From NCBI GenBank assembly GCA_943840615.1, contig CALSVI010000008.1:62001-126000 (forward strand): a DNA stretch of 64,000 nt, given 5' to 3'. Both the position numbers and the translations under genes were made by a program. Below the pieces are notes generated by a model. The model had not been told where the DNA came from. It saw nothing but the letters and a program-made list of their open reading frames with translations, and ran no database searches. How positions within the stretch are numbered: the first letter of the stretch is position 1; every line of letters starts with the position of its first letter. Shown piece after piece: positions 6,696 through 46,462 of this stretch. The DNA comes from an uncultured Luminiphilus sp. (GTDB lineage Bacteria > Pseudomonadota > Gammaproteobacteria > Pseudomonadales > Halieaceae).

Positions 6696-7434
6696 TCTCG
6701 GGGGAGGTGGGCCATGACGCTGGTGGACACCCCGCCATCCACCACCAGTTCGTGACCGGAGATGTATTTCGCGCCTTCGGAGTCGAGAAAAAGTACGGCT
6801 TCCGTTATGTCGGCTGCTTCGCCCAAAGCGCGCAGTGGCACGCCGCCACCCCTCACTGCCCGTACTTTGGGGTTTTCAAAAATCGGTTTCGACATGCCTG
6901 CATCGATCATGCCGGGAGCGATGGCATTCACGCGAATCCCTTTTGGACCCCATTCGATGGCCATGGCTTGCGTCATGTTGGCCATGGCTGCCTTTGTAGG
7001 GCCGTATAGTCCGACCCCCGGGGCGGGGTGAATGCCGTTGATAGACGTAAAGTTGATGATATGGCCCGAGCCTCTCTTCCATCATGGCGGGCGCGATCTC
7101 GCGCGCACAGAAGCAACTCCCCAGCAGATTGACGTTGACCACGTCGATGTAGTCTTCGAGCTGACTGCGCTTCCATGGCGCCAAAGCGCACGATTCCCGC
7201 ATTGTTAACAAGAAGATCGGGCGTCTCGCCAAAGGCCTCGAAAGCGGCTGCAATCTGCTCGGGGGAGGTAACATCGGCTTCGATGCCCACGGCGTTGTCG
7301 AGCTCGGACGCGGTTTGCGCCACGCGGTCGGCACCCAAGTCGAAGATACCGACGCGATACCCAGATTCGCTCAGGCGACGCGCGACGTCGGCGCCCAATC
7401 CGGCCGCACCGCCTGTAATCACTGCCGTTCTCAT
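6692..7434 (-). CDS. Short-chain dehydrogenase/reductase, two frameshifts
   Basis: Repaired length is about 246 residues from the ATG at 7434 (MRTAVITGGAAGLG). Single extra bases near 7163 and 7068 split it into three frames. Repair gives the NNAG motif, FTSING with the catalytic Ser, and the YGPTKAAM Tyr-x3-Lys pair. Asp in FDLGADR after beta-2 indicates NAD rather than NADP. The end is the normal SDR tail with GGVSTS. The start was chosen because the residues upstream of Met (MGQLKKQSPL...) are not family-like. The gene follows the amidohydrolase and overlaps the ThuA-like gene by four bases (ATGA). Confidence 0.85.
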
Positions 7435-7552
7435 GTTGACCTCACTGCTAATGCTTGCTGATGACAGAGGTGACTGTTTTTTTAACTGGCCCATGCCGAT
7501 ACTGCCGGGCGGCCGCGCCGCAACTCGTTTTGCTGAGTCGTTAATTCATGAG

Positions 7553-8905
7553 TTAAGTATTGAGTCCCATGGACTGCACCAATTCCTTGGTCAGAATGCG
7601 CTCCGAATACTCGCTCACCCGCCAGCCGGGCAATTGCCACTCCTTGGGCAGGGGGGTGCTCGTGTCGACCAGCCGGCCGTCTTTTATGATGTGGCGGAAC
7701 CGGTCGGCGTCTCCGAGCTGGGTAATGTGAGTCTCTGGCTCGCCATCGAAAACCAGGATGTCGGCAAGATAATCGGGTTTGATGCAGCCCAGCTCGCCTT
7801 CCAGCTTGAGTGCCCGGGCGCCTTGCTCGGTGGCGCTGTTGATCGCTTGTAAGGGTGTCATGCCTAGATCTTCGACAAAAACCTGTAGCTCTCGGTAGTG
7901 CCAGTCGCCGTAGGGCGTCAGACTGAAGCCGCTCTCGCTGCCGGTGAGGAGCGGCACGCCGGCATCAAAGGCCGCGCGCAGCGTCCCCGCGCTCTCGGTA
8001 ATTTCGGCGCGAAAGACCTCCCGAAGACTCTCATCTGAGCCGATTGCGGCGCCAAAGTCCGCCAAGTTAGCTTGAAAAGTGAAGGTGGGCACCAAAGGCA
8101 CTTTGCGGTCGACGACGGCTTTCAGCGCTTCGTCGTCCATGTAGGTGGCGTGCAGGATCATGTCGAAACCCGCCAGCGCGGCGTCTCGTGTGCTGGCAGC
8201 GTTGCGGCAATGCCCTACAACGGGAATGCCGAATTGATGTGCGGTGTCACAGACCAGCTTGAGTTCATCTAGGGTCCAGGTCGAGATTTCACCGCCTTCT
8301 TTACCCGGTCGAATGGGTAGCCCGCTGACATGCACCTTGATCCAATCTACGCCCGTTTTAATCTGCTTGTGAATCTCTCGAACGATCTCGTCTGGCGTGT
8401 GGACGATCCGGGCGTAGCCGCGAGTGCCCTCGTCAGGGAGTAGCCGCGTTGCAGTGCCGCCCACGCAGTTGATGAGTACATTACCCCCGGTGGTCATTCG
8501 GGGCCCTTCAATGACGCCGCCTTCGATGGCATCTCGAAGATCGACCCCGACATCGAACACGCAGTCGGCGTCAAAAAAGCTGGTGAATCCGGCGCGCAGC
8601 ACTTTTTGCGCGTTGACCCCGGCGACCAGCGCCGCGAGTCCATAGCGCCGATGGAAAAAGAGCTCGTCGTTGCTGTTGGGGTGGTCAAAGCTAATGTGGC
8701 AGTGACTGTCTATGAGTCCTGGCAGCACTCGACATCCGGTGGCATCGATATCTTGCGCGACGGCATCGGCCGGGCAGCTGGCAGCCGCCTCAGGACCCAC
8801 GGCGACAATTCGCTGGTCACAGATCAGTACGTCGCCGGCAAACGGGTCGGCGCCGGTTCCGTCGATAATGAGCCCATTACGGATCAAGGTGTGTGTTTGG
8901 CTCAT
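7553..8905 (-). CDS. Amidohydrolase family protein (imidazolonepropionase/prolidase-like)
   Basis: This intact 450-residue enzyme is of the amidohydrolase superfamily. It has the composite N-terminal beta domain (IRNGLIIDGTGADP), the first metal motif GLIDSHCH, a Lys in DWIKVHVSG that could be the carbamylated bridging residue, and His in VVGHCRN and ILHATYMDD. At the place where a metal-binding Asp is normal (GTDS) it reads LLTGSESGF, so the usual Asp is absent or displaced. The C-terminus returns to the composite domain (GCIKPDYLADILVFDG). It probably hydrolyses a cyclic amide or ester in the pathway. Its first 29 bases overlap the end of the GntR gene. Confidence 0.85.
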   Translation of the reverse strand: MSQTHTLIRNGLIIDGTGADPFAGDVLICDQRIVAVGPEAAASCPADAVAQDIDATGCRVLPGLIDSHCHISFDHPNSNDELFFHRRYGLAALVAGVNAQKVLRAGFTSFFDADCVFDVGVDLRDAIEGGVIEGPRMTTGGNVLINCVGGTATRLLPDEGTRGYARIVHTPDEIVREIHKQIKTGVDWIKVHVSGLPIRPGKEGGEISTWTLDELKLVCDTAHQFGIPVVGHCRNAASTRDAALAGFDMILHATYMDDEALKAVVDRKVPLVPTFTFQANLADFGAAIGSDESLREVFRAEITESAGTLRAAFDAGVPLLTGSESGFSLTPYGDWHYRELQVFVEDLGMTPLQAINSATEQGARALKLEGELGCIKPDYLADILVFDGEPETHITQLGDADRFRHIIKDGRLVDTSTPLPKEWQLPGWRVSEYSERILTKELVQSMGLNT

Positions 8906-9608
8906 AGCCTTTGCTCCTCAGTGAGCGTGGTCGGATGAAGTCTTCGTGCGAGGTTTTATGGAGTGCGATGAAACGCATCAACGCATCCCCTTGCTCCAGT
9001 GTGTGGCGCTGGATGCGCTCGCGGGCGGCCCTGGCGTCCCCAGCAAAGATAGCGGAAATAATGCTGTCGTGGTCCGACTGGTTTCTCTCCAGCCTTCCTG
9101 CGGCAACAACCTGAAAACGTCGATAGGGGAGTACCCTGAGCGCCAGCGATTCGGCGGTGTCGATCAACACTTTGTTGCGGCAGCCTCGCACAATGATTTG
9201 GTGGAAGGCGCTGCCCAGTTCGGCGTATGCATTGGGATCACCCTGAGTCCTTAAGTTTTCGGCCGCGGCCTCGTGAATGGCCATGAGCTCTGTCTTTTCA
9301 CCCGGTGCCATTCGTGATGTGCTTAAAAACGCGGCTGCGCCTTCGAGTTCAGACAGTGCCTCAAACAGCTCGAGAAGTGTGCCCGGATCGAGGTTGGCGA
9401 CAACGGCCCGCTTGTGCGCGCTCTTGGAGACAATGCCTGCTTGGACGAGCTGTGTAATGGCTTCTCTTACAGGGGTGCGGGAAACACCAAAGCGGGTCGC
9501 AAGGCGGCCTTCTTCAAGAGGAGCTCCCGGCGCTAATCGACCGTTGAAAATATCGCTCTCAATCGCGAGGCGAACGGCGTCTGCCTGCGTGGGGTCGCGT
9601 TCGCTCAT
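8877..9608 (-). CDS. GntR-family transcriptional regulator with FCD sensor domain
   Basis: The 243-residue protein has an N-terminal winged helix (LATRFGVSRTPVREAITQLV, the GntR signature) and an all-helical FCD effector domain. FCD metal/ligand histidines can be proposed in SAFHQIIV, QSDHDSIIS and IQRHTLEQ. Such regulators usually repress catabolic operons and release DNA on binding an organic acid or sugar acid. The gene sits inside the operon, with an ATGA overlap after the first P450. The palindromes at 12107-12140 in the divergent promoter are its most likely targets, which is an inference. Confidence 0.92.
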   Translation of the reverse strand: MSERDPTQADAVRLAIESDIFNGRLAPGAPLEEGRLATRFGVSRTPVREAITQLVQAGIVSKSAHKRAVVANLDPGTLLELFEALSELEGAAAFLSTSRMAPGEKTELMAIHEAAAENLRTQGDPNAYAELGSAFHQIIVRGCRNKVLIDTAESLALRVLPYRRFQVVAAGRLERNQSDHDSIISAIFAGDARAARERIQRHTLEQGDALMRFIALHKTSHEDFIRPRSLRSKGYEPNTHLDP

Positions 9609-10840
9609 CCCGTCACTCCAGCCGTCTTCGCCAAGGGCGGCGCACCAATAAGAAGCGGGTAGCTGCCCCAGTTGGGGCGCTCCGTCGCGGTATCCGCCAC
9701 AGGAGGGCGAGCGGGATCAGGACGCGCGTCATGCCTCAGGAGGCTTTTCAGCAGGTTGGTTAGCGTGCCTAAGTGAGGCGGCTGATCCTCTGTTTTGGCG
9801 GTGCCAAGCCCACCCGCGATATCGCGCCCGAAGCAGGTGTGAATCCCGATGCCAAAGGTGAGGCCAAACGTCGGTATGCGATTTGCCACTTCGCGATTCG
9901 GATTAAATGATGCGGCATCCTCACCGAATAGCGATGTCTCGAGGTTTGCTGACATCAGGTCAATCAACACGCTGTCACCGGCGGCGACGGGCGTGCCGTC
10001 AGGAAGCGAAAATGATTCACTGGCCTCGCGCCAGGCAACGGGGCTTGCCGGATGAAGTCGCAGGCTCTCGTGTACGCAACGCTGCAAAAAACCGTCATCG
10101 GTTTTAAGTCGAATGCGGTCTTCCGGGTGTGCCTCTGACCATTGCGCCAGTTCATGGAAAGTGTGGGTCAGCGCATTGGCTGAGCTGTGCGCTCCGGCCT
10201 GCATAAAAAATGCCACTTCGCGCAGGATCATGTCGTCATTGAGGTCCTGATCGTCACGATTGGCCAGCAGCACGGTCAGGATGTCTCGCGGCGCCTGTTC
10301 TTCGGGCAGATCGCCCCGGCTGATTTGTTCCAGGATAGCCTCGCGCCGCCGTTTTGATGGCGCGACAAATCGCGCGTTAAATTGTGCGAGGGCCTCGGCA
10401 ACCTCGTCGCGAACGACTGCTTTGTCTCGAGTGGAATGAAACAGCGTCGCGCCCTCACTGAATTTCCGGGTGAAGGCGACCAGCATATCGGTTTCACTCT
10501 CGGAGCCTTCGGGGCGATCTATCCCCGCGATATCCGCGCTCAGATTGATGTTCACTCGAAAGCCAAATTCGGGCAGATCGAGACGTCCTTGGTCGAGGTA
10601 GGACCCCAGCGTTTGTGCCAGCGTGGCGGGATACACCTCACGTTCGTAGTAGCGCGCAAAGTCTCGGCGGAACAATTTCCACTCGATGGCTCTGCGACAG
10701 GTATGGGACTCTCCGTGCAGGGTCAGTAGCACGCGCTCCATGAGGACGTCACATTCGCCGTACATCGACTGCACCAGGCGCCGATCGCACAGCGCAGCAT
10801 GTGCATGCTGATAGCCGGTAACCTTTGCGAGTGCCTTCAT
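9605..10840 (-). CDS. Cytochrome P450 (first of a tandem pair)
   Basis: The product is about 411 residues from the ATG at 10840, four bases after the stop of the neighbouring P450. The haem-binding loop FGIGIHTCFG has the thiolate Cys, and the K-helix motif is ESLRLHP. The I-helix reads QAGAHSSAN where bacterial P450s usually have AGHETT, so the acid of the acid-threonine pair is replaced by His and the Thr by Ser. It has no membrane anchor, so it is a soluble class I enzyme, probably fed by the ferredoxin at 4877-5206. Sequence blocks shared with the second P450 (RDILT, REVAFF, RLHP) indicate an old tandem duplication. Confidence 0.93.
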   Translation of the reverse strand: MKALAKVTGYQHAHAALCDRRLVQSMYGECDVLMERVLLTLHGESHTCRRAIEWKLFRRDFARYYEREVYPATLAQTLGSYLDQGRLDLPEFGFRVNINLSADIAGIDRPEGSESETDMLVAFTRKFSEGATLFHSTRDKAVVRDEVAEALAQFNARFVAPSKRRREAILEQISRGDLPEEQAPRDILTVLLANRDDQDLNDDMILREVAFFMQAGAHSSANALTHTFHELAQWSEAHPEDRIRLKTDDGFLQRCVHESLRLHPASPVAWREASESFSLPDGTPVAAGDSVLIDLMSANLETSLFGEDAASFNPNREVANRIPTFGLTFGIGIHTCFGRDIAGGLGTAKTEDQPPHLGTLTNLLKSLLRHDARPDPARPPVADTATERPNWGSYPLLIGAPPLAKTAGVTG

Positions 10841-10844
10841 GGAG

Positions 10845-12048
10845 TCAGAATAGAACCGGATAGGTCGCCCACACATCCCGCTCCGACGCCTCGATTTTCT
10901 GCGGCAGCTGATCGGGGTTGGGGAGCATTCCGCGTTCGATCAGCTCTTTGATGATCAAGGTGACGGTGCCGAATTGATGGTTCTCCGGATTGGGGGCCTC
11001 GCCATCTCGCAGTACCGTACCGGCTACCAGGTTCATGCCAAGGCAGACGTGCATGCCGCCACCAAAAGACATCCCGGCAGGGCTGATGCGCCCCTGAATG
11101 GTTCGTTGCGGATTAAATTCGGTCGCATCATCGCCAAATACGGTGGCATCCCGGTTTGCGGTCTGCAGTTCGACGACCACCTTGTCGCCTTTTGGTATGA
11201 GCCGCCCGTCTGCCAGAGTGACGTCGGCCTCAGCTCGCCTCCAGGCCTCGGGGCTAGAGGGGTGGAGGCGCATGCTCTCCAAAACGAACCGTTGCAGTTG
11301 GTGCGGGTTCGCGACGATTTCTTCGGGTGTCTTGTTTTCATTAGCACACCAATTGAATAGCTCATGGGTGGCGTGTACCAGGGTGTGAACCGAGGTGTGT
11401 GACGCTGCGAGGTAAAAGAAGGCGACTTCCCGCACCATTAATTCGTCGGGCATGGATAACTCGGCGTCATGCATTAACAAGATCGTCAGGATGTCTCGCG
11501 GGAGTGCCTCTTCACTGATATTGCCCGCCCGGTAATCCTCGAGCAGTAGCCAGACGGCGAGCGCGTGACGGCAGGAAAAAGCGTTCGCGAAATTCGTCGA
11601 TGGCCTCTCGGATCTCCTGAAAGATCGGTTCACGGTCGCCCTTAAATTGTCCGATGGTGGCGGCTTGCCCGAGCTGGATGAGCAATCGATGCTGGGCGTC
11701 GGCTTCTTCTACGGTGCCGTCTATTCGGTCAATTCCGGCGAAAGACAGTGAGAGATGCACCATGATGCGGTAGCCGAGCTCTTTGAGATCGAGTGACGAG
11801 TCGGTGAGGAACTGGTCCAGAGTCTCGCTGAGCAGGTCGGGAAAGACCTCATTTTCATAGACTCTGAAGAAGTTTTTCCGGAATAGTTGGCTTTCGATCG
11901 AGCGTCGCTGGCGGTGTTCGTCCCCGTGCAGCGTCACGAGTACCTTGTCCATGAGGATCTTGCCCTCATCATAGAGGGACTGCTTCAGGTCAGTGATGCG
12001 CAGGGCATGCTCGACATCGTGGTAAGTGCTAACGCGATGGACTTCCAT
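10845..12048 (-). CDS. Cytochrome P450 (second of a tandem pair), one frameshift
   Basis: This is the first gene of the minus-strand operon. Starting at the ATG at 12048 (MEVHRVSTYHDVEHAL), it breaks near 11548. Removing one base there restores RRLALLEDYRAGNIS and the remainder, about 400 residues in all. The haem loop is FGGGMHVCLG and the K-helix is ESMRLHP. The I-helix reads LAASHTSVH, again with His instead of the normal acidic residue but keeping the Thr. It probably uses the same ferredoxin as the downstream P450. Two related P450s in tandem suggest successive hydroxylations or two substrates of one class. Confidence 0.9.
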
Positions 12049-12106
12049 GCTGATACTCCCTGATAGCGAAGGGCGCTAACGATTAAAGTGGGTGCCTACA
12101 GCGATA

Positions 12107-35637: not shown

Positions 35638-37129
35638 TCAGCTCGCGTTGAGCACCACCGAAATACCCAGCTTTTCCATCGCCGGTGCGCTTTGCTGAAG
35701 TTCCCAGATCGTTAGGGGGTGGTCCGTTCCCCAGCGCTCGGGGAAGGCGAGGGTGATGGTTTCCTCGTCAGCCGACACGCTTAGATCGGGTAGGCTTCCA
35801 GCGCCTCTACATGCTTCAAGATGACTGCAAGGCGGAGCAACACCATCATTCGGGCTACGGTACGGCGTTTCTTTTTGGCGACCGGCTCCAGCAATTCTAG
35901 ACGAGGCTTACCTTTCAGCCCTGCTATCAGGGCTGCCATGACTTCCTGATCCTGCTGTGCGAAGCCGGGCAGGTCCGTATTGAGTACCAAGTACGCCGAG
36001 TGCTGCGAGTAGCTCTTCTGGGACACCGCGACTCCGATCTCGTGGAGCGCGCCTGCCCATTCGAGTAGCTCAATATCGTGGCTATCAAGCTGCCAGATAT
36101 CTCGTGTCGCCTCGGCCAGCAGAGCGACCCTGTGTGTGACGAGATCTGCAATGGTTTGGTCGGCAGAGTAGCGCTGTTGCATGGCTGAAATCGTGCGGTT
36201 GCGGACGTCCTCGTGGCTGAATCTTCCGATCAGGTCATAGATGACCCCCTCACGCAACGCCCCCATGGATGTCCGCATTAGGGAGATTTGCAGCCCGTCA
36301 AAAATGCCCATGGTGATGGCCAGGCCAGCCGTCACAACGCCCTTGCGCGTCTCGCTAAGACCGGCGAGGTCAATCTCGTCAATGTGGCGAAACCCGAGAA
36401 GTTTTTTTCGCAGTTTTGTGAGCGAATCGCGATCAATGCCGTCTTCTCGCCAGCCCGCGGTCACGATGAGACCTCTCGATCGCGCGCAAGGTGCCGGACG
36501 AACCCACTGCCTCTTGCCAAAATTCTCTGTGGTAGTTGCGGCGGATGTGCGAGACCTCGATTCGGGCGCGATGATAGGCGGCGTCAAATCGCTCTTTGTT
36601 GAGTTGTCCGTCGGGGAAAAATGCCTCGCCGTAAGAAACGCAGCCCATTTGTAAGCTCTCGAGCCGCATTGGCTCAAAGCGCTCGCCCAGGATAAATTCA
36701 GTGCTACCTCCACCGATATCCACCACCAAACGCGTATCTTCGTCGTCAGAGAGGGTGTGCGCGACGCCCAGATAGATCAAGCGCGCTTCTTCTCTCCCGT
36801 AAATCACATCGATAGGCACCCCAGAATCTGCTCGGCGGGTTCGATGAAGTCCTGGCGATTTTTCGCACGGCGCAGCGCATTGGTGCCAACGACCCTGATC
36901 TTTGCTGGAGCAGTACTGTCAATGAGCTGCTTGAACCGCTCAAGGCAAGTCAATCCGCGTTTGATCGCCCCGGCCGTGAGCATTCGCGGAACGAGATGTC
37001 TCCCCCAGCTGCACTTTTTCGGCCAGTGCATGAACTCGGCCTCAACTCGCCGAAATCGGATTTGGCGATCATCAGATGAAAAGAGTTGCTGCCGAGGTCA
37101 ATGGCAGCTAAGCAGCGTATCGGATCCAT
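35638..37129 (-). CDS. ppx: Exopolyphosphatase (Ppx/GppA family), five frameshifts
   Basis: The repaired protein is about 497 residues. It starts MDPIRCLAAIDLGSNSFHLM at 37129 (phosphate-1 motif of the ASKHA fold), continues KIRVVGTNALRRAKN, GREEARLIYLGV, VDIGGGSTEF (phosphate-2) and an HD-like C-terminal domain (ELLEWAGALHEIGVAVS). The C-terminus, SADEETITLAFPERWGTDHP, ends at 35638. Breaks lie near 37036, 37003-37007, 36819-36822 (a lost base), 36474 and 35793 (a lost base). It removes terminal phosphate from polyphosphate, or converts pppGpp if it is a GppA. It follows alr on the same strand after 79 bases. Confidence 0.88.
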
Positions 37130-37208
37130 TTTTGTTATGCGCCATGAGTGGAGTAGGCCGCCGCTCGTGGCCGAGTAAAGGCGTGAGTGACTGCAACGCT
37201 TTTGAGGT

Positions 37209-38279
37209 TCATGAATGGTAGCGCCGGGGTGCTCTGGCGGTAAGGCGGGTCATGAGTTCGTAGCCAATGGTCCCGCAGTGATTCGCCACCTCATCAATTT
37301 GGGGCTGATCTCCCCACAATACGGCGGGTGCGCCCGTCGTCACGCCGACGCAATCCGTGACGTCCACGGTGGTCATATCCATAGAGACTCGTCCTGCGAG
37401 GGGCGCAATCTGCCCATTGATGCTGATAGGGAGTGCCATCCGCGGCCGCCCAGGGGTAACCGTCGCCGTAGCCAATTGGCAGGGTTGCAATCAGGCTGTC
37501 GCGCTGGGCAATCCATCGTCCGCCGTATCCGACGGATTCACCGCTTTTTACTTGCCGGACGGCGAGCACCGAACTGCGCAGCTGCATGGCCGCCTTGATC
37601 TTTGGGTCGGGCGCGAGCCCCTGTATTTGTCCGCCGTAGAGCGAATAGCCCACGCGGACCCAGTCACTGCGTGCCGGGCAGGGCAGAGCGGGTCGCCGCA
37701 GAGTTATGGAGGCTGGTGGGGGCATCCCAGGGGCCTGTGTGATGAGTCCAGTCTGGCTAATTGGGTTTGCGTCAATGCGCTGTCGGGGTCTTCGGCAGAC
37801 GCCAGATGCGACATGGCAGTCACGCTCGTGATGCCCATTTCCTGAAGTTTGCGTCGGGCAGGGCCGACTTGATCGGAAGCAAAGCCCAGCCTGTGCATGC
37901 CGGTGTCCAGCTTCATCCAGACGTGGGGTAACTCTGCGGCGTGTACCTTACACCATTGCAGTTGCTCCTCCTGGTGCAGTACGGGCCACAAATCGAGCTT
38001 CACGGCTAGCGCAAGATCACTGGCGGCATGCGGGCCCTCCAGAATAAGAATGGGCGCCTTGATCCCCGCCTCGCGCAATATGACCGCCTCCTCGGTATAG
38101 GCAACGGCTAAGGCGTCGACCAATGCCTCGATGTGCTGTGCGACGGGCACAGCGCCATGGCCGTAGGCGTTCGCTTTCACGACTGCAATGAACTTTTGAT
38201 CCACTAGGGGAGCGCGCAGCGCGGCAATATTGTCACTGATGACGGTGAGATCGATGTGAATCGTCGTGGCGCGTGACAT
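37209..38279 (-). CDS. alr: Alanine racemase, three frameshifts
   Basis: The PLP enzyme of about 355 residues interconverts L- and D-alanine. The N-terminal barrel carries the PLP Lys in FIAVVKANAYGHG; the second catalytic base Tyr is in GESVGYGGRW. Extra bases near 37739, 37666 and 37443 split it. Repair gives STGPWDAPTSLHNSAAT, DWVRVGYSLYGG, IGYGDGYPWAARMALPIS and LAGRVSMDM, all as in Alr. The ATG overlaps the stop of the aminotransferase gene by one base (TGATG), so the two are translationally coupled. Confidence 0.92.
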
Positions 38280-39139
38280 CAGGGTCTGCTGAAACGATGC
38301 TGGTGGAATAATTGCTGTGCCGCTGACCAGCGAGGACCGGGCTTGCCATCATTCACGGGCTGGCCGTTAACGCGGACAACGGGAGACAACTCTTTGGTAG
38401 AAGAGCTCAGCCAGATTTCCTGTGCACTGAGTACTTCTTCGAGACTAACGGGGCGGACCTCTACCGCCCAGTCTGAATGTGCCGCCAATAGCTCAAGGCA
38501 CTGACGCCGAGTCACCCCCGGCAATTTTTGATGGTCCAGTTCGGGCGTCAGGATGATATCGTCCGACACAACAAACACGTTGCAGGCTGCCGCTTCGGTG
38601 AGCTGATTGTGATCATTGAATAGCAGTACCTCCTCCGCGTTCTCCTCAACGGCTTCCATCATGTGGAGCACATTGCCCAAGAGGGCTGTCGACTTGATGT
38701 GACAGCGGCCCCAGCGTTGGTCTGGTCGCGTCACGGTGGTGAAGCAGGTGGCGCTCTCGATAGACCCGTCAGACGGAGGCGAGATAGGAAAAGTGTAGGC
38801 GAACACAGTGGGTTCACATTTGTCAGGGAAGGCGTGCTGACGCCTTTCGACAACGCCTCTCGTGATTTGCAGATAGATTCCCAGATCCCCGCCACCATTT
38901 CGGTGGATGAGCTCGTCAATGAGCGCATGCAGCTGCGCGTCGGAATGAGACGGAGACAGCGCTATGCCCTTTAGGGAGTCATGCAGTCGCTCAAGGTGGT
39001 ACGGCATGGCCACTGGTTGGCCGCCATAACAAGGAATGACCTCGTACACGCCGTCGCCAAATAAAAAGCCTCGGTCCATCGGCGATATACGCGCCTCAGA
39101 CAAAGGGGTGAATATCCCGTTGACATAAGCCGTGGTCAC
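38279..39139 (-). CDS. dat: D-amino acid aminotransferase-like class IV PLP enzyme
   Basis: The product is 286 residues from a GTG at 39139; the coding frame is open further upstream but homologues begin at about this TAYVNGIFTPLSEA segment. It belongs to fold type IV with the branched-chain aminotransferases. The PLP Lys is in CHIKSTALLGNV, with LTEAAACNVFVV and LPGVTRRQCLEL after it. DRGFLFGDGVYEVI and the GRCHIKS context favour a D-amino acid aminotransferase (D-Ala + 2-oxoglutarate to pyruvate + D-Glu) over IlvE. The neighbours alr and the D-glutamate cyclase-like genes support this. The GTG appears to overlap the repaired stop of the DUF4392 gene. Confidence 0.88.
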   Translation of the reverse strand: MTTAYVNGIFTPLSEARISPMDRGFLFGDGVYEVIPCYGGQPVAMPYHLERLHDSLKGIALSPSHSDAQLHALIDELIHRNGGGDLGIYLQITRGVVERRQHAFPDKCEPTVFAYTFPISPPSDGSIESATCFTTVTRPDQRWGRCHIKSTALLGNVLHMMEAVEENAEEVLLFNDHNQLTEAAACNVFVVSDDIILTPELDHQKLPGVTRRQCLELLAAHSDWAVEVRPVSLEEVLSAQEIWLSSSTKELSPVVRVNGQPVNDGKPGPRWSAAQQLFHQHRFSRP

Positions 39140-39993
39140 CGCGGTTCCCCTGCAATAAAATGGCGTGGACGGCCTGCATGACGCTCTCTGCCGCGTGTTC
39201 GGGAAAGCCATCTTCTGTGGCGGTGGACGCTCCCGTCACGCCATCGACGGCGCCGTTGCGCACCAGGTGTTCCAGATCAGACTGAATATCGACTATTGGG
39301 CTCATTGTTCTGTTATCCAGCCAGTCTGTCAGTGCGCAAAGCGCGTAGGCCGCCCAGTTAGACACGTCCGCTACGATTAATTCGCTGCAGGTGCTGCTCG
39401 CTGGACGTATATCGAGTTCTGACAGGCTTTCCAGTGCGTTTCCCATACCGACTTCATTGCCGCCGTCACCAATGGCTATGGTAGGGCAGTTGGCCTGATC
39501 AAGGTAGGGCTCAACCCTGACGCATCGCGCAGAAATATCTTCACCGGCCATATTGTAATAGTGGCCGTCCTGCGGCGGCGCCCGGGCACTCGATGCTGAT
39601 CACCAGTGCTGGGGGATCCTTTTTATACAGCTGCCGCCGCGGCTTTTTGAGCTTGTTCTTGCGTTCCCGGCGACAGCGCATGACAACAGCACTGCTCGGA
39701 GAGCGCTTCGCCGTTACGGCGGCCTCGGATAGAATGACAGGGTCTTTGCCGAGTCTTTGACAGAGCCGATAGAGCGCCATCGCTCCAGCGGGCCCGTCGG
39801 TTTCAAAGGTTTGCGCCACCGGGAATCCGGTCAGAATATACACTCGCCCCGAGCAAGCTCGGATTGTCTGCGCGGCGCGCAGCAGATAGCCCGGCGTCAA
39901 GCTGGCTCGCACGCGATCCATGCCGCGATGATTGTTGGTCGCTAGCAGTGCTTCGATAGCCTCCGAGACGGCGAGAAGATCAGGCTGGGTCAC
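39136..39993 (-). CDS. DUF4392 protein (D-glutamate cyclase C-terminal domain family), about four frameshifts
   Basis: The start is a GTG at 39993 overlapping the pxpC stop (GTGA). The repaired protein, about 285 residues, runs VTQPDLLAVSEAIEALLATN, VYILTGFPVAQTFETDGPAG, EALSEQCCCHALSPGT, YKKDPPALVISIECPGAAAD and PTIAIGDGGNEVGMGN, the last being the family hallmark. Breaks lie near 39710 (lost base), 39629, 39569 and 39141; the last gives a natural end at QGNR with the stop overlapping the Dat start. In mammals this domain is the C-terminal half of the mitochondrial D-glutamate cyclase. Here it is a separate gene. The frame as read continues to 39096. Confidence 0.8.
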
Positions 39994-40915
39994 CGCAATC
40001 GTGTCTCCAAGTAGTGCTGCTCCAGCCATTGAATTCGGTCGGCCTCCTCGGGGCTGCACACCGCAAAGCGCACTTTCTGCCCGGGCCGCGCCTGAGCCAG
40101 TCGTAGGCAATCACTGCGAATGACGGCGCCCGGCTTAGGGTAGCCGCCTACAGTTTGTCGGTCGTTGAGGAGGATAATGGGCTTGCCATCGGGTGGAATC
40201 TGGATGGCCCCGTGGCAAGTGGCCTCAGACAGGAGGGTGTGAATTCCCGTCTCAATGTGGCCCCCGTTAGCGTGACACCCATCCGGTTGGCTTTTGGGGT
40301 GACGACATAATCGGATTGCAGGAGAGATTTGATCGCGGTCTCGGAGAGTGCCGCGTACTGAAATCCCGGCACGAACCTGAGCCATAGTGTTTCCCGGGTT
40401 CGCACGGTGATGAGTTGAGGATCCGCTCGGCCTCCGCTGCTCGGAAGTCGCCAATGGGCAGCACATCACCATTCTTCAGATAGCCCCCGTTCAGGCCGCC
40501 GACTCCCTCTCTTGGCGAGGTGCTGCGGCTCGCAAATTGTGGGGTGATCGCTATCCCGCCCGATATGTGTAGGTAGCTGTAAACGCCCTCTGCCGCCGCT
40601 TTGATGTCTAAGCGTCTGTCCTCCCGCAACAGTGTGGACGCTGGTAGGGTTGACCGGCTGTGGTCGATGCTGAGGCTAACCGGTGCGCCGGTAACCACGA
40701 TGTGGCAGTCATCCGCTGGGGGACGCAACGAAATCGCCGTACGCTACCTCGATGGCAGCTTCGTCCTGAAGGTGCCCGAGCTGGCGCTGGCCACTGATCA
40801 GCGCGCACCAATCCATCGCACCCGCAGGTGGAATACCCATCTGCAGCATGCCGAACCGGCCGCTGTCTTGAACGCTGGAGGCGATTCCCGCTCGCTGGAT
40901 CTGCAGCGTGTTCAT
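39990..40915 (-). CDS. pxpC: 5-oxoprolinase subunit C (biotin-dependent carboxyltransferase-like), three frameshifts
   Basis: The repaired protein is about 308 residues. It starts MNTLQIQRAGIASSVQDSGR, typical of PxpC/KipA, then GVYSYLHISGGIAI, REGVGGLNGGYLKNGD, RFVPGFQY and ends QWLEQHYLETRLR. Breaks are one extra base in the G run at 40718-40722 and lost bases near 40431 and 40257. PxpC works with PxpA and PxpB in ATP-dependent opening of 5-oxo-L-proline to L-glutamate. Its start overlaps the pxpB stop (ATGA). Confidence 0.9.
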
Positions 40916-41607
40916 GAGGGGCGGCTCATCGAGTGGAAATCTGCTTCGCTGATGGGTTCAAATCTGACAAAGTCACCGACGCTCAGCCTCGAGGGGGGTG
41001 TCGATTCGAGAGTGAATAGTCGTTCCGGGCACGCACCAATAAGTCGCCATCCTCCGGGGGAGTCGCAGGGGTAAATAGCGGTCTGTGAGTCCGCAATCGC
41101 CACAGTGCCGGCCGAGACTTCAGGGCGGGGGGTACTGAGTCGAGGTGTCTCCAAGCGCGAGTCGACGTTACCCAGATAGCAAAATCCGGGGGCGAAGCCC
41201 GTGGCATAGGCGAAATAGGTCTGCTCGCAGTGAAGTCGAATAACGTCGTCAACACTCAGGCCCGTGTCGTCCGCAAGCCACTCGAGATCTGGCGCGACGC
41301 TTGGGTGATAGAACACCGGGAGTACAACCGGCTGCTCGGTGCGTTCGTCGGGTTCGGATGTCTCCGGCAGGGGATTGTCGGCCTGCTCGAGCAGCCATGC
41401 CTCAGCGCGGTCGCGTTCGAATTTAAAGGGCGTGAAAAAGAGGGTGAGGGTGGTATAGCCGATAACGCTGTCGGTCAGCGTCTCACCGAAGTGGTGTTGT
41501 GCGGCGTCCTGTATCGACAGGAGTCTGCGGGTCAGCGCCGGTTGCGGCGGCTCTGAGAAGATCAGGCGCATCGCCGATTCACCCGCTGGGCCGACCTCAA
41601 ATGTCAT
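40912..41607 (-). CDS. pxpB: 5-oxoprolinase subunit B (KipI-like)
   Basis: The 231-residue, intact protein has the KipI/PxpB pattern: a degenerate N-terminal domain (SVIGYTTLTLFFTPF), then the cyclophilin-like domain with YATGFAPGFCYLGNVD, RLSTPRPEVSAGTVAIAD, AIYPCDSPGGWRLIG and a final FVRFEPIS. It forms a complex with PxpC that activates the PxpA reaction. It starts at the base after the pxpA stop and overlaps pxpC by four bases, so expression is coupled. Confidence 0.93.
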   Translation of the reverse strand: MTFEVGPAGESAMRLIFSEPPQPALTRRLLSIQDAAQHHFGETLTDSVIGYTTLTLFFTPFKFERDRAEAWLLEQADNPLPETSEPDERTEQPVVLPVFYHPSVAPDLEWLADDTGLSVDDVIRLHCEQTYFAYATGFAPGFCYLGNVDSRLETPRLSTPRPEVSAGTVAIADSQTAIYPCDSPGGWRLIGACPERLFTLESTPPSRLSVGDFVRFEPISEADFHSMSRPS

Positions 41608-42349
41608 TTAAAGGTTGTCCAGCGCCTGACGTATGCCGCGGATCATTTTGACCGCACCGGGCGTATCGCTGTGAACGCACAATGTGTCGGCGTCTACAGG
41701 GATGCGCTTTCCTCGCGGTGTCCTCAGTTTGTTTTGAGAGATGGCGACCGCTTGCAGTGCCGCTGCATCCGGGCTCAACAGAGCGCCTGGCTTGTCTCGC
41801 CCCAGAAGCAGACCGCGGCTAGTGTAGCCGCGGTCTGCGAAGGCCTCGTAGCGCAGAGTGAGGCCATGCTCTACCGCGAGTTGCACGGTCTTGCGGTCTC
41901 TGGGCGTTGCCAGCACCACCAATTCCAAATCGGAATGCCAGCTGGCAACCGCCCTCATGATGTCGTTGAGTAAAGAGGGGTCAGCAAGCACGGCGTGATA
42001 GAGCGCACCATGGGGCTTGACGTAGGTAACGCGGGTACTGTTGGCGCGTGCAATGCCATCGAGGGCGCCAATTTGATACTGAACAAGATCAATGAGCTCT
42101 TGTCCGCGGATGTCCATTGCGCGACGACCAAAGCCCTGCTTGTCAGGGTAGGAGACATGGGCCCCGATCTCGGTCTTGTGGCGTCTGGCCAGATCAATAC
42201 ACCGGCGCATGGTGCTGGGGTCACCCGCATGTCCGCCGCAGGCGATATTGGCGGCATCAATCAGGGGCATGATGCGTTTTGTCATCCCCCATCTCCCAGG
42301 GACCAAAGCTCTCTCCCATGTCGCAGTTGAGGGTTAGCGGTTTTGTCAT
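41608..42349 (-). CDS. pxpA: 5-oxoprolinase subunit A (LamB/YcsF family), one frameshift
   Basis: The start at 42349 ([20 protein letters not shown]) overlaps the stop of the DUF1445 gene by four bases. An extra base near 42275 breaks the frame after MGDDKT; removal gives [19 protein letters not shown], the family's second hallmark. Later blocks are [26 protein letters not shown] and [10 protein letters not shown]. Total is about 246 residues, the usual size. PxpA carries the ring-opening site for 5-oxoproline and needs PxpBC. Confidence 0.93.
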
Positions 42350-43156
42350 GAGTTATTCACCAGTTCTGCATTCTTAAGATCTGTGACCAGCATATGTCCC
42401 GGCTCGTGAGTAATGGCCAGAGGCAGTCTCGCAGCTTCTAGCGCCACTTGTGGCGTCACGCCGCAGGCCCAGAAGAGCGGAATGTCGTCCTCACGTAGGC
42501 TAACGGGATCACCAAAATCAGGTTGCCCAAGATCGCCAATTCCAATCAAGCCCGGATTACCAAGGTGAATCGGCGCGCCATGGACTGAGGGGTATCGGGA
42601 GCAGATCTGAATGGCTTCAATGGCCGCTGCCGCGGGCATCGGACGCATACTCACGACCATTTTGCCCTCGAACGGTCCTGCGGGGCTGCAGTCAATATGC
42701 GTGCGGTACATGGGCACATTCACTTCCTCACTAATGTTTCTGATTTCGATCCCGGCCGTCGATCAATGCCTCTTCGAACGAGAAGGAGCAGCCCAAAGCG
42801 AAAGCGACCCAGTCGTCCTGCCAGAGTTGCGTAATGTCATTGCGCTGCTCGACCACTTGCCCGTTTTTCCACACCCGGTACTGGGGTAAGTCGGTTCGGA
42901 TGTCGATATCGTTGCCCAGCGCGGGTAGCTGATAGGCGCCGGGCTGGTCACTTGAGGCCAGCAGCGGGCAGGGCCGTGGGTTCAGTCTGCAAAAGGTCTC
43001 GAAATGCGTTGCGGTATCTGCAGGCAGAATGACCACGTTGCATTGCACGAAGCCTGGGGCTAACCCGGAGGTTTGGTGATTGAAATCGGATGACCGGCAA
43101 AGGGCCCTGATCTCTGCGCCTGTCGTCTTCTTATTCGCCGCTACCATCTTGGTCAT
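42346..43156 (-). CDS. DUF1445 / YcsI-like protein (D-glutamate cyclase family, putative hydro-lyase), one frameshift
   Basis: This is the first gene of the operon, about 269 residues. The N-terminus shows the family segment [17 protein letters not shown], then FSFEEALID. Removing one base near 42756 gives [20 protein letters not shown] and on to [16 protein letters not shown] and [27 protein letters not shown], all standard DUF1445 blocks. Database names vary (putative hydro-lyase, UPF0317), and the same domain forms the N-terminal half of mammalian D-glutamate cyclase. The shared operon with PxpABC supports a role in forming or handling 5-oxoproline. It diverges from the acyl-CoA synthetase gene across 48 bases. 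Confidence 0.85.
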
Positions 43157-43204
43157 GAGCTTGTATAGTGACCTCGAATCATACGCTCAAAAGAGAGAGA
43201 CGCC

Positions 43205-44735
43205 ATGCCGCATTTTTCTGCCTATGCTGCTGAAACCCCGGATCGACCCGCCTACATTATGGCTAATTCGGGCGAGGTTGTGACCTATAGCTCAGTTAGA
43301 TCGCAGATCGAATCAGATTGCCCATTTGTTGAGATTGTCGGGGGTCAGGCGCGGTGATCACATTGCCATGATGATGAAAAACTGTGTTGAGTTCTTGCAG
43401 GTTGCGCAGGCGGCAAACCGAACTGGAGTCATCTTTACGCCCATCAGCACGCATCTGAAGCAGGATGAAACGGCGTACATCATCACGAACTGTAAAGCGA
43501 AATTATTTATCGCCTCAGCCAGCCTTGCGGAGGTTGCCGTCGACGCCGTCTCTGCGACCGAGGGATTGGAGCGCTGTCTGTCGGTAGGCGGTGACATTGC
43601 GGGATTCGAATCGTTGGATGAGCAGCTGGCGAGCCTTCCGGAAACGCCCATCGAGGATGAATTTTTGGGCGCTCCAATGCTGTATTCCTCGGGCACTACG
43701 GGTAAGCCAAAGGGCGTTTACTGGGCGCCTCATGCCGAGGATATCCAAACGGATCATCCCATGTCGGGCAGCGTCGGGGCATTCTTCGGTTTTAATGTCG
43801 AGACGATTTATTTGTCGCCGGCTCCGCTCTACCACGCGGCGCCGCTCCATTACAATTTGATGGTGCTCGGCCTAGGCGGCACGTCAGTGATCATGGAGCA
43901 TTTTGATCCGGAACAGTCGCTGGCTTTGATAGAGCAGTATCAGGTGACCCATAGTCAGTGGGTGCCCATCATGTTTGTGCGAATGCTGAAACTGCCAGAA
44001 GGCGCGCGAACGCGTTTTGACCTGAGCACTATGAAGTGTGCGATTCACGCAGCTGCCCCCTGTCCGATAGATGTGAAGGAGGCCATGATTGAATGGTGGG
44101 GCCCCGTGATCGTGGAGTATTACTCTGGTAGCGAGGGCAACGGATTCACCATCATCGATTCGGCCAGCTGGCTAACGCATAAAGGTTCAGTGGGGCAGGC
44201 ATTAATTGGCGAGCCTAGAATCGTGAGCGAGACGGGTGAAGTACTCGGTCCCGGCGAGGTGGGCGACGTCTACTTCGCGAACAGCCGGCCCTTTGAGTAC
44301 TTTGACGAGCCAGAGAAAACGAAAGACGCCTTTAATGCGCAGGGTTGGAGCACGATGGGTGATGTGGGTTACCTTGATGACGAGGGTTTTCTCTACCTGA
44401 CCGACCGCAAGAACTTCACCATTATCACCGGAGGGGTCAATGTCTACCCCGCCGAAATCGAAGGGCTTTTGATCACCCACGACAAGGTGGCGGATGTGGC
44501 GGTGTTTGGCATACCTCACCCCGAATTTGGTGAAGAGATCGTGGCGGTGGTGCAGCCCCTCAACTGGGCAGAGGCCACCGAGGAGACTCGAATGGCGCTG
44601 ATTGACTGGCTGCGGGAGCGTCTGTCCGGTGTCAAGGTGCCGAGAAAACTCGATTTTATGGAGGCGCTACCGCGAATGGATAACGGCAAGCTTTACAAGC
44701 GACATTTGCAGGACGCTTATCGCGACGCGGTGTGA
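43205..44735 (+). CDS. Acyl-CoA synthetase (AMP-forming), one frameshift
   Basis: The ATG at 43205 follows GAGAGAGACG. One extra C near 43296 breaks the frame; repair gives VVTYSQLDRRSNQIAHLLRL. The product is about 509 residues. It has the P-loop-like MLYSSGTTGKPKGVYW, the YYSGSEGNG adenine motif, GWSTMGDVGYLDDEGF, TDRKNFTIITGGVNVYPAE and the catalytic Lys in MDNGKLYKRHL. It activates a carboxylic acid, probably a fatty, steroid side-chain or aromatic acid, to its CoA thioester. It is divergent from the oxoproline operon and starts the acyl-CoA region. Confidence 0.9.
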
Positions 44736-44830: not shown

Positions 44831-46462
44831 TTGGCGGTCAAGTCTGAGTTGCGGCAGCTCGAGCAGGAAATGGATGCGGCGCAGTGCTACGAAGAGTGGC
44901 TGACTGCCGCGGGCGCTCACGATGCGCTGACCGGAAAGGCGGAGTGGCGTCAGGAAGAGCTTTCCGAGCTGTATGATCATGCGCAAATTCGCTACCGATT
45001 GGATCGACTGCGCAAGTTTCGTAGGCAAAAAGACTGGACGGGTCTCCTCTACGCCCTCAACGAAGGGATCCACGGCAATATGGGGGGGATGGGTAACAGC
45101 GTTCTCTACCGGCAGGCCAAATCCGGCACCAAGGTACTCGTTGAACAATACATACAAGAAATAGACGAAGCGCTTCGGCTCCTGGCCGAGTTGCCCGACG
45201 ACGTAATCCCCACTCAGCAGAAGCTCGATTTCTTTTATCGCAGTAACGTGTGTTACGGCCGCTCAGCGCTGATGTTGAGTGGCGGCGGTGTACTGGGCTT
45301 TGTACATGTCGGGGTGGTCACCGAGTTACTGCGTCACGGCCTGCTGCCCCGGGTGGTATCGGGGTCCAGCGCGGGCTCCATTGTGGCGGCGGCACTCGCA
45401 GCCTACACCGATGAAGAAATGATGCAGCTTGACCTCATTGCCTTGATGGAATCTGGCGGAGCGGATACCAAGGGTCTGGTTCGACAATGGTTGTCGGGAG
45501 CGGGAAGCCGGTTCACCGCTGAAGACACTGAAAAGCTGATTGAATCGACGATCCCCGATCTGACTTTTGGCGAGGCGTATGCCAAGACCGGTCGTCAGGT
45601 CAGTATCACGGTGGCGCCTGCCGAGCCACATCAGCGCTCCAGGCTCCTCAATGCCGTGTCTTCTCCCAACGTTTACTTACGTTCTGCTGCGATGGCCTCT
45701 TGTGCCATTCCCGGTGTATTCCCGGCCGTAATGCTGCAAGCCAAGAATGAAAAAGGCGAGCGGCAGCCCTACCTGCCTGCGCGACGCTGGGTGGATGGCT
45801 CTGTCGCAGACGACCTGCCGGCCAAGCGCCTGTCGCGGCTTTTTTCGACCAATCATTACATTGTGAGTATGGTGAACCCGATTGCGAGAGCTTTCCTTCC
45901 TCGTGACGACAAAGTAAGGCCGCTGCGGCAAGCGGCCACTTCGCTGGGAATGGGTATTGGCCGGGAGATGCTGAATTTCTATCGTGGGGTCGCCAAGAAA
46001 TATGGCGAACATTGGCCGAAATTCAACATGATGATGCACGGAGTTCATGCGTTACTTGATCAAGAATATTCGGGCGATATCAATATTGTTCCAAAGTTTC
46101 GCTTTCAGAACCCGCTCAATCTGATTAGCCAGCCCAGCGAACAGGAGCTGCGATTGCTCGTGAGGGAGGGCGAGAGGGCCACCTACAGCCGGGTCGAGTC
46201 TGTTAGGCGCTGTACCCAAATTTCTAGGACGCTGGAGGAAATCCTCCACCGTTTTGAGCATGGCGACCTGCGCCCGGCGCCCGGGACCTACCGGCGGCCA
46301 AAGAGCTCGCGTCGCCGGCCTCCGCCCACGGCGTCGCAAAAGAAAGCGATGAAGGCCGATAGGGCGTCTAAGGCTGGTAAATCAGACCCTGCCCCAGGCG
46401 CTCAATCTCCACGCCGAATGACCAGAGCCGCCGGGGTGGCGACCAAAATCAAAGTCGCCTGA
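44831..46462 (+). CDS. Patatin-like phospholipase with DUF3336 domain
   Basis: The product is 543 residues from a TTG at 44831, preceded by GAAGGAGTGG. The N-terminal DUF3336 region (about residues 15-130) is followed by a patatin domain: oxyanion hole SGGGVLG at 150, nucleophile Ser180 in GSSAG and catalytic Asp in WVDGSVADDLP. The C-terminus is Lys/Arg/Pro-rich (KSSRRRPPPTASQKK), so it may bind membrane or nucleic acid. DUF3336 patatins include the yeast triacylglycerol lipases, so a neutral-lipid or phospholipid lipase role is likely. It could release fatty acids for the neighbouring synthetases. Confidence 0.92.
   Translation: MAVKSELRQLEQEMDAAQCYEEWLTAAGAHDALTGKAEWRQEELSELYDHAQIRYRLDRLRKFRRQKDWTGLLYALNEGIHGNMGGMGNSVLYRQAKSGTKVLVEQYIQEIDEALRLLAELPDDVIPTQQKLDFFYRSNVCYGRSALMLSGGGVLGFVHVGVVTELLRHGLLPRVVSGSSAGSIVAAALAAYTDEEMMQLDLIALMESGGADTKGLVRQWLSGAGSRFTAEDTEKLIESTIPDLTFGEAYAKTGRQVSITVAPAEPHQRSRLLNAVSSPNVYLRSAAMASCAIPGVFPAVMLQAKNEKGERQPYLPARRWVDGSVADDLPAKRLSRLFSTNHYIVSMVNPIARAFLPRDDKVRPLRQAATSLGMGIGREMLNFYRGVAKKYGEHWPKFNMMMHGVHALLDQEYSGDINIVPKFRFQNPLNLISQPSEQELRLLVREGERATYSRVESVRRCTQISRTLEEILHRFEHGDLRPAPGTYRRPKSSRRRPPPTASQKKAMKADRASKAGKSDPAPGAQSPRRMTRAAGVATKIKVA

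Follow-up and report, generated by a model that had tools for sequence, protein, structure and literature searches.

Relation of the operon to described systems

The vertebrate D-glutamate cyclase (9030617O03Rik/C14orf159) carries a DUF1445 and a DUF4392 domain in one fused polypeptide (PMC5339696, PMC5132392), and the mammalian protein is reported to convert D-glutamate to 5-oxo-D-proline (PMC5339696). Here, we describe a seven-gene operon with the same two domains in 64,000 nucleotides of an uncultured Luminiphilus sp. (assembly GCA_943840615.1, contig CALSVI010000008.1, positions 62,001 to 126,000; this whole stretch is hereafter the window). On the minus strand, from position 43156 to 37209, the gene order is DUF1445, pxpA, pxpB, pxpC, DUF4392, dat, and alr. 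Unlike in the vertebrate cyclase, the two halves are encoded by separate genes with pxpABC between them, and the D-amino acid aminotransferase gene dat and the alanine racemase gene alr are added; cyclase activity is predicted here. We consider it probable, with some reserve, that the operon serves as a two-way D-glutamate hub composed of a supply arm and a return arm. In the supply arm, Alr would turn L-alanine into D-alanine, from which Dat would transfer the amino group to 2-oxoglutarate and so form pyruvate and D-glutamate. In the return arm, D-glutamate that is in surplus or has been salvaged would be converted by DUF1445 and DUF4392 to its ring form, 5-oxo-D-proline, or the pair would act on 5-oxoproline of the D hand; PxpABC, judging from its families, would open 5-oxoproline to glutamate using ATP.

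Adjacent cyclase halves have already been published for gut bacteria: GLUCM_HUMAN has 6 split and 0 full-length homologues in a table that also includes OPLA_HUMAN, "split" meaning neighbouring genes that jointly cover both domains (PMC11580864). The available text of that report gives no link of the split homologues to pxpABC, dat, or alr, and proposes no function for them (PMC11580864). The known pxpABC, pxpTABC, and pxpAGBC clusters have the same pxpABC order, to which the operon adds DUF4392, dat, and alr. DUF1445 beside pxp genes also occurs without DUF4392 (described below), and B. subtilis ycsI is, we assume, a DUF1445 gene beside pxp genes.

Dat standing in for MurI is a known route (PMC5808125, PMC5885031), and Tara Oceans data are reported to show that DAT is abundant in seawater and chiefly of gammaproteobacterial origin (PMC12363236). 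The usual gammaproteobacterial dat adjoins dacA (Pfam in 5 retrieved loci) in the arrangement dacA-dat-DUF493-lipB-lipA (Pfam in L146, ORF layout in the others), whereas the operon dat lies within an oxoprolinase operon; in the Dat tree, the dacA-linked proteins form branches apart from the operon-Dat clade. Marine Proteobacteria and halophilic archaea have a D-glutamate catabolic pathway that reportedly includes an N-acetylation and a racemase. This pathway (Yu 2023, ISME J) has the marine use of D-glutamate in common with the operon. We found no description of an operon combining pxpABC, the cyclase halves, dat, and alr in open-access full text, with most subscription papers outside the search. 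Each enzyme family is known; in the same open-access text we found neither the joining of the cyclase halves to pxpABC, dat, and alr nor the split between supply and salvage versions of the operon.

Genes, junctions, and reading frames of the operon

The genes were identified by Pfam and NCBIfam matches on open reading frame (ORF) pieces of the window genome, a 2.09 Mb draft in 19 contigs that is 82% complete. These matches bore out the gene order, strand, and families proposed in a first-pass annotation, which had been made from the sequence alone:

42346..43156, minus strand: DUF1445 / D-Glu_cyclase (UPF0317, "putative hydro-lyase"), split into ORFs 42731-43156 and 42346-42723
41608..42349, minus strand: pxpA (LamB/YcsF family, 5-oxoprolinase subunit), PF03746 3.2e-75, frame break near the start
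40912..41607, minus strand: pxpB (5-oxoprolinase subunit), PF02682 1.7e-60, unbroken
39990..40915, minus strand: pxpC (5-oxoprolinase subunit), PF02626 on two ORFs, several frame breaks
39136..39993, minus strand: DUF4392 / GLUCM-like_C, PF14336 3.7e-20 and 9.4e-27 on two pieces, frame breaks
38279..39139, minus strand: dat (fold-type IV D-amino acid aminotransferase), PF01063 4e-49, unbroken
37209..38279, minus strand: alr (alanine racemase), PF01168 5.4e-47, three frame breaks

Both cyclase domains, PF07286 and PF14336, are over cut-off; the former matches the second DUF1445 piece (1.3e-51), and NCBIfam PRK05463 matches both pieces. The three oxoprolinase genes are all present together. PxpA exceeds the cut-offs of NF003816 and NF003814, PxpB reaches 136.6 bits against TIGR00370 (just under the cut-off of 145.55), and PxpC was scored in pieces only. 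The top NCBIfam matches of Dat are D-amino-acid transaminases, below their cut-offs (232 versus 320 and 208 versus 277 bits); against the operon-Dat profile, whose best PDB matches are the D-amino acid aminotransferases 4pbc, 4m0j, and 1daa, the window Dat scores 489 bits. For Alr, the first piece scores 152 bits against TIGR00492, and 207 bits together with the neighbouring in-frame pieces (cut-off 168). Compared with the proteins of the nearest relative (G050), identity is 90-92% for the pieces of DUF1445 (intact in G050), 62% and 85% for the PxpC pieces, and 94% for Dat.

The coupled overlaps proposed in the first-pass annotation are present in the sequence: ATGA at 42349-42346 (DUF1445/pxpA), TAA and then ATG at 41608/41607 (pxpA/pxpB), ATGA at 40915-40912 (pxpB/pxpC), GTGA at 39993-39990 (pxpC/DUF4392), and TGATG at 38281-38277 (dat/alr). 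At the DUF4392/dat junction, for which a "repaired GTGA" at 39136 had been given, the GTG start of dat exists (39139), and the adjoining stop can be read in frame only by crossing a frame break. Such breaks, barely hinted at in that annotation, affect five of the seven genes (DUF1445, pxpA, pxpC, DUF4392, and alr), while pxpB and dat are whole. The operon differs from that of G050 by 14 small indels, at 91% DNA identity over the aligned stretch. The dN/dS values of the seven genes against G050 are 0.05-0.23, that is to say, the codons are under purifying selection. The frame breaks are therefore probably errors in the sequence or, failing that, decay that began very recently, and these values ruled out old pseudogenes.

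Dat and Alr as the probable source of cell-wall D-glutamate

Peptidoglycan needs D-glutamate, which is added by MurD. MurD was over cut-off in the window genome and in 53 of the 58 genomes tested; thus, D-glutamate is needed. MurI (TIGR00067) was over cut-off in none of the 61 genomes of the window's family (Halieaceae), the window genome included, with weak sub-cut-off matches in four. By contrast, Dat above 200 bits was found in 51 of the 61, and operon-type Dat in all 15 of those that are at least 95% complete. (Family and order counts take Dat at 200 bits or more, because lower-scoring fold-IV relatives exist in many genomes; class counts and those from 50 selected genomes, described below, take E <= 1e-45.) A second operon-type Dat occurs in two family genomes, G004 and G046; the family yielded no additional Dat scoring in the dacA-linked range. 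DUF4392 is present in 38 family genomes, and 35 of these have an alr over cut-off beside it on the same contig and no second alr over cut-off. In the remaining three, alr is on a different contig from DUF4392 (G005) or no alr was found (G012 and G043).

The supply genes also persist where the rest of the operon is missing. All 13 genus-mates without DUF4392 whose loci were retrieved have the arrangement dat-alr-ppx, with the five-gene module absent between the flanks; the acyl-CoA synthetase-like (ACS) flank lies on the other side of dat-alr in 12 of these, and the contig ends there in L053. These 13 were chosen for a full alr match from 22 DUF4392-less genus-mates. The nine left out comprise G044 (likewise with a full alr match, dat and alr being adjacent by coordinates), G008 (an alr fragment only), and seven in which no alr was found (G001, G014, G018, G020, G026, G028, and G055); G060 was counted as DUF4392-negative, yet its DUF1445-pxpABC reaches the contig end. 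The dat genes of the 13 module-less genus-mates group with full support (100/100) as a single clade nested within the operon-Dat clade of a midpoint-rooted tree. The simplest history would therefore be that the five-gene module was lost once while dat-alr stayed, and since this clade keeps dat-alr without the return arm, the return arm is accessory.

Because MurI is missing, dat-alr is kept without the other five genes, and the sole alr lies in the operon, Dat and Alr, that is, the supply arm, most likely make both the D-alanine and the D-glutamate of the cell wall in the window's MurI-less lineage; the comparative evidence for this is strong. The residues agree with these assignments. In Dat, R100, H102, and K149 are conserved at 97% or more in 88 proteins, and we take them to be the lysine that binds pyridoxal phosphate (PLP) and the R-x-H carboxylate-trap motif. 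In Alr, K34 and Y274 are conserved at 97% or more in 56 relatives, and the motifs K-A-N-A-Y-G-H-G and G-Y-G-D-G-Y-P, presumably the PLP-lysine and tyrosine regions, are both legible in the window pieces.

Beyond the family, MurI and Dat tend to stand in for one another. In the order outside the family, 22 genomes have MurI and no Dat, 4 have both, 10 have Dat and no MurI, and 0 have neither; Dat is thus present in 10 of 10 genomes without MurI versus 4 of 26 with MurI. The corresponding counts in a sample of 150 genomes of the class are 27, 22, 87, and 14 (p 3e-7). These last 14 are among the 101 class genomes without MurI over cut-off and have no Dat match at the class threshold.

Recurrence of the gene order among relatives

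A gene-neighbourhood search across gammaproteobacteria, which the first-pass annotation had suggested, showed that the order recurs. We searched 97 genomes (the window genome, its genus, family, and order) and found DUF4392 in 42 and DUF1445 in 47. All 42 DUF4392 carriers also have DUF1445, as would be predicted if the two were parts of a single function. We retrieved 20 of the 42 DUF4392 places outside the window genome, and 18 of these neighbourhoods have all seven genes intact and in the same order (12 from the genus, 3 from other genera of the family, and 3 from other families of the order). The two exceptions are L029, where only pxpA-DUF4392-dat-alr are present, and L042, which holds a DUF4392 paralogue from the same genome as L028. 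Each junction has an overlap or a gap of at most 10 bases in 13 to 18 of the 18 neighbourhoods, as measured on longest ORFs, which overstates overlap; L025 has a gap of about 1.2 kb between DUF4392 and dat.

We also scanned named genomes and inspected the best 80 of 386 confirmed DUF4392 relatives, several of whose loci end at contig ends. A co-directional dat lies near DUF4392 in 67 of these 80 loci and is missing in 13. Seven genes in order were found in 28 loci (L084 with a weak alr match only), and the first six genes without alr in another 28. The core with dat recurs in marine Gammaproteobacteria. An adjoining dat accompanies the DUF4392 cluster in, among others, Marinobacterium, Neptuniibacter, Amphritea, Alkalimonas, SAR92, and Halieaceae, and is missing beside it in, for example, Leucothrix and Bowmanella. 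These loci and the 18 neighbourhoods ruled out that the order is unique to this contig. The module is patchy across the class, since among the evenly drawn 150 gammaproteobacterial genomes DUF4392 occurs only in the window genome.

The hands of 5-oxoproline in the proposed return arm

PxpABC opens 5-oxo-L-proline with ATP (PMC13274462), whereas the cyclase yields the D form. The first-pass annotation left this difference unaddressed. The two forms would meet only if PxpABC accepted both hands or if a racemase worked on the ring form; otherwise, the two halves would have different substrates.

In an alternative to the two-way hub, the operon would repair metabolite damage by clearing both hands of spontaneous 5-oxoproline, with PxpABC taking the L form and DUF1445/DUF4392, Dat, and Alr taking the D form. 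We regard this as possible but doubtful. 5-Oxoproline is reported to form spontaneously from glutamate and glutamine and to accumulate in B. subtilis pxp mutants (PMC13274462). In three genomes (G073, G086, and G096), DUF1445 stands with pxp genes (pxpB and pxpC only, without pxpA, on the G096 stretch) while DUF4392 is missing from the genome and dat from the stretch, an arrangement that favours repair. Opening 5-oxo-D-proline without ATP is uphill, so that Dat would have to pull the reaction, which speaks against it. The mammalian enzyme, moreover, was demonstrated in the direction of 5-oxo-D-proline (PMC5339696). The same three genomes, set against the Pseudoalteromonas records and G063, which have no adjoining pxpBC (described below), indicate that dat is the usual companion of DUF4392, and the oxoprolinase that of DUF1445.

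Versions of the operon with and without alr

A second alternative is that all seven genes are degradative, the operon being devoted purely to the salvage or detoxification of D-glutamate and 5-oxoproline. We consider this unlikely. In favour of salvage, 25 of the 67 dat-bearing loci have, between DUF4392 and dat, a gene that belongs to a single cluster, whose representative is of the LysR type by Pfam. We searched whole genomes for MurI and Dat for 50 loci chosen from the 80, of which 10 are without a co-directional dat. All 12 tested genomes with the LysR gene and no alr have another source of D-glutamate (MurI in 4, an additional Dat scoring in the dacA-linked range in 11, and both in 3; the dacA layout was inspected in 6 of the 11), so salvage fits there. 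The presence of operon Dat in MurI-positive genomes, where it is unneeded for supply, points the same way. Thus, where LysR is present and alr absent, the operon appears to be inducible and available for salvage; in the window's family, where alr is present and LysR absent, it appears bound to supply.

Additional signs of salvage come from a peptidoglycan-related neighbour. Three Pseudoalteromonas records have the order GH3 - DUF1445 - pxpA - DUF4392 - dat, and in Bowmanella denitrificans a GH3 gene with the same motif lies 2.6 kb upstream of the module. These GH3 proteins, roughly 600-640 aa long and encoded beside the module or close to it, are as follows:

L163:3606-5426: GH3 with NagZ-type motif, Pseudoalteromonas
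L164:3612-5420: GH3 with NagZ-type motif, Pseudoalteromonas
L166:3599-5407: GH3 with NagZ-type motif, Pseudoalteromonas
L138:1328-3220: GH3 with NagZ-type motif, Bowmanella denitrificans

The Pseudoalteromonas proteins carry a KHFPGHG....DSH-type motif, which we take to be of the NagZ kind, and the top NCBIfam match of the two GH3 proteins scanned is beta-N-acetylhexosaminidase, below cut-off. In Pseudoalteromonas sp. THAF3, the module is followed by genes for an MFS transporter, a dipeptidase, and a LysR-type protein; different genes follow it in the other two records. This setting fits salvage of cell-wall D-glutamate outside the window's lineage, and lends some support to the suggestion of the first-pass annotation that the substrate comes "perhaps from peptidoglycan".

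What tells against an all-degradative operon is the window's family itself, which has neither MurI nor a second Dat of the dacA-linked range and which keeps dat-alr in 13 genus-mates without the other five genes. The first-pass annotation had inferred a dedicated D-glutamate and 5-oxoproline route for salvage or detoxification; the dedicated operon is supported, and a purely catabolic role is not, also in view of the 35 of 38 carriers in the family in which the only alr over cut-off is the one in the operon. The alr-less core of other marine Gammaproteobacteria, which frequently has the internal LysR gene, mostly coexists with another source of D-glutamate and is probably used to salvage D-glutamate or 5-oxoproline, peptidoglycan being one possible origin.

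We return to the two-way hub. In its favour, the operon was the only D-glutamate source found in 15 of 17 genomes with alr versus 5 of 23 with dat and without alr (Fisher p 7e-5). In this comparison, alr matches below 250 bits were not counted (L084 and L129), and because dat lies within 300 bases of the end of the sequence in L083, L088, L115, and L129, "no alr" may reflect the contig end there; L088 is among the 5 of 23. Several points weigh against the hub. (i) The alr association is clade-structured and drawn from 50 chosen of 80 loci, and its p value is uncorrected for kinship. (ii) "Only source found" weighs MurI and Dat, with MurL and DapF outside the search, and "another source" rests on profile scores, the second Dat having 270-320 bits, or 208-224 in 2 of 18. 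The MurL route (MurD2 and an epimerase) is another source of D-glutamate (PMC5808125). (iii) In the family, 10 of the 61 genomes (54-94% complete) are without a Dat above 200 bits. (iv) MurI is missing in 101 of the 150 class genomes versus 37 of the 50 operon-locus genomes. This base rate ruled out that loss of MurI is special to operon carriers, so that only the replacement of MurI by Dat and the link to alr remain. (v) PxpABC is described for the L form and the cyclase yields the D form, so that the link within the return arm is hypothetical. (vi) pxpB and pxpC are not beside pxpA in the Pseudoalteromonas records or in L029 (G063); no PxpC on the Pseudoalteromonas replicons was among the 40 matches listed of 730, a search that left their chromosomes outside. 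(vii) Among the best 80 scan loci, the GH3 motif occurs in 1 (L138).

Conserved residues of DUF4392 and DUF1445

The solved relatives of DUF4392 are TON_0340 (4dwz, 5gl2-5gl4, and 5gkx), which has a two-metal site, and 4fc5. TON_0340, an archaeal protein, is reported to bind two manganese ions through Glu59, Asp61, Glu115, Asp157, Glu161, and Asp246 and to have very low Mn-dependent phosphatase activity, which is lost in E59Q and D157L (PMC5132392). By motif and spacing, these ligands map to E62, D64, E132, D173, E177, and D258 of the operon DUF4392, which are conserved at 97% or more in 99 proteins of relatives, and the acidic metal-ligand motifs are still legible in the window pieces.

DUF4392 might accordingly be read, not as half of a cyclase, but as a small-molecule phosphatase of the 5-oxoproline pathway that would act, for example, on a gamma-glutamyl phosphate intermediate. 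The dimanganese site with its kept ligands favours this view, as does the gamma-glutamyl phosphate step that is assumed for PxpA (PMC13274462). Set against it are the very low activity of TON_0340 and the vertebrate DUF1445-DUF4392 fusion, which was demonstrated to cyclise D-glutamate, and we judge a phosphatase to be improbable.

Quite unlikely, too, is that DUF1445, DUF4392, and PxpA(BC) form a one-way inverter of D- to L-glutamate via 5-oxoproline, in which D-glutamate would be cyclised, one of the DUF proteins would change its hand at the ring stage, and ATP-driven opening would give L-glutamate. If true, such an inverter would replace the reverse MurI reaction in MurI-less cells and close a full cycle of D-glutamate within the operon. 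DUF1445 has four cysteines that are invariant in 88 proteins and also present, by alignment, in 3db9, which together with 2pif is its structural relative; both are named only as UPF0317 proteins. DUF4392 has Cys166 in 97 and Cys199 in 81 of 99 proteins. The idea that DUF4392 would be a racemase using Cys166 and Cys199 is weak, because neither position is Cys in the solved chain 4fc5. Finally, that the seven genes are neighbours without a shared pathway, held together by operon inertia, is very improbable: dat and alr are separate from the module in some lineages, but the junctions are tight, the same order extends over several families, and the operon Dat forms one clade.

Flanking genes and other settings of the module

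The operon is flanked in most genus loci by a divergent acyl-CoA synthetase gene and ppx. In the window, these neighbours are as follows:

43205..44735, plus strand: AMP-binding (ACS) flank, divergent, PF00501, frame break near the start
44831-46462: patatin gene adjoining the ACS flank, PF01734
35781..37196, minus strand: ppx/gppA phosphatase flank, downstream and frame-broken, PF21447 and PF02541 on ORF 35781-36713

ACS, patatin, and ppx are conserved neighbours in the genus, the first two standing outside the pathway. Across positions 35781-43300, there are many indels relative to G050, nearly all of a single base and also in ppx and ACS; the draft genome seems poorly polished in this region.

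Other settings of the families were also seen. L042:7373-8380 (G058) encodes a second, divergent DUF4392 protein, 28% identical to the operon protein of L023 and without the two cysteines of most operon versions; its gene adjoins an MFS transporter gene near a TonB-dependent receptor gene. On an Agrobacterium plasmid (L165, 3798-6352), DUF4392 lies between threonine/serine dehydratase and RidA genes, near bhc glyoxylate genes, a different setting for the family. In another family, L056 (G070, 7115-12061) has pxpA-pxpB-pxpC, a phosphoribosyltransferase-domain gene (PF00156), and dat-alr, in a genome with no MurI match and with neither DUF1445 nor DUF4392.

Meaning for the lineage and the protein families

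In bacteria, the counterparts of both halves of the vertebrate D-glutamate cyclase are uncharacterised; the operon gives them a tight metabolic setting, which is testable in cultured marine bacteria. The window belongs to a lineage whose cell-wall D-glutamate supply appears to rest on an aminotransferase encoded inside a 5-oxoproline operon. The distinction between supply and salvage versions predicts which deletions would be lethal and which would be only nutritional.

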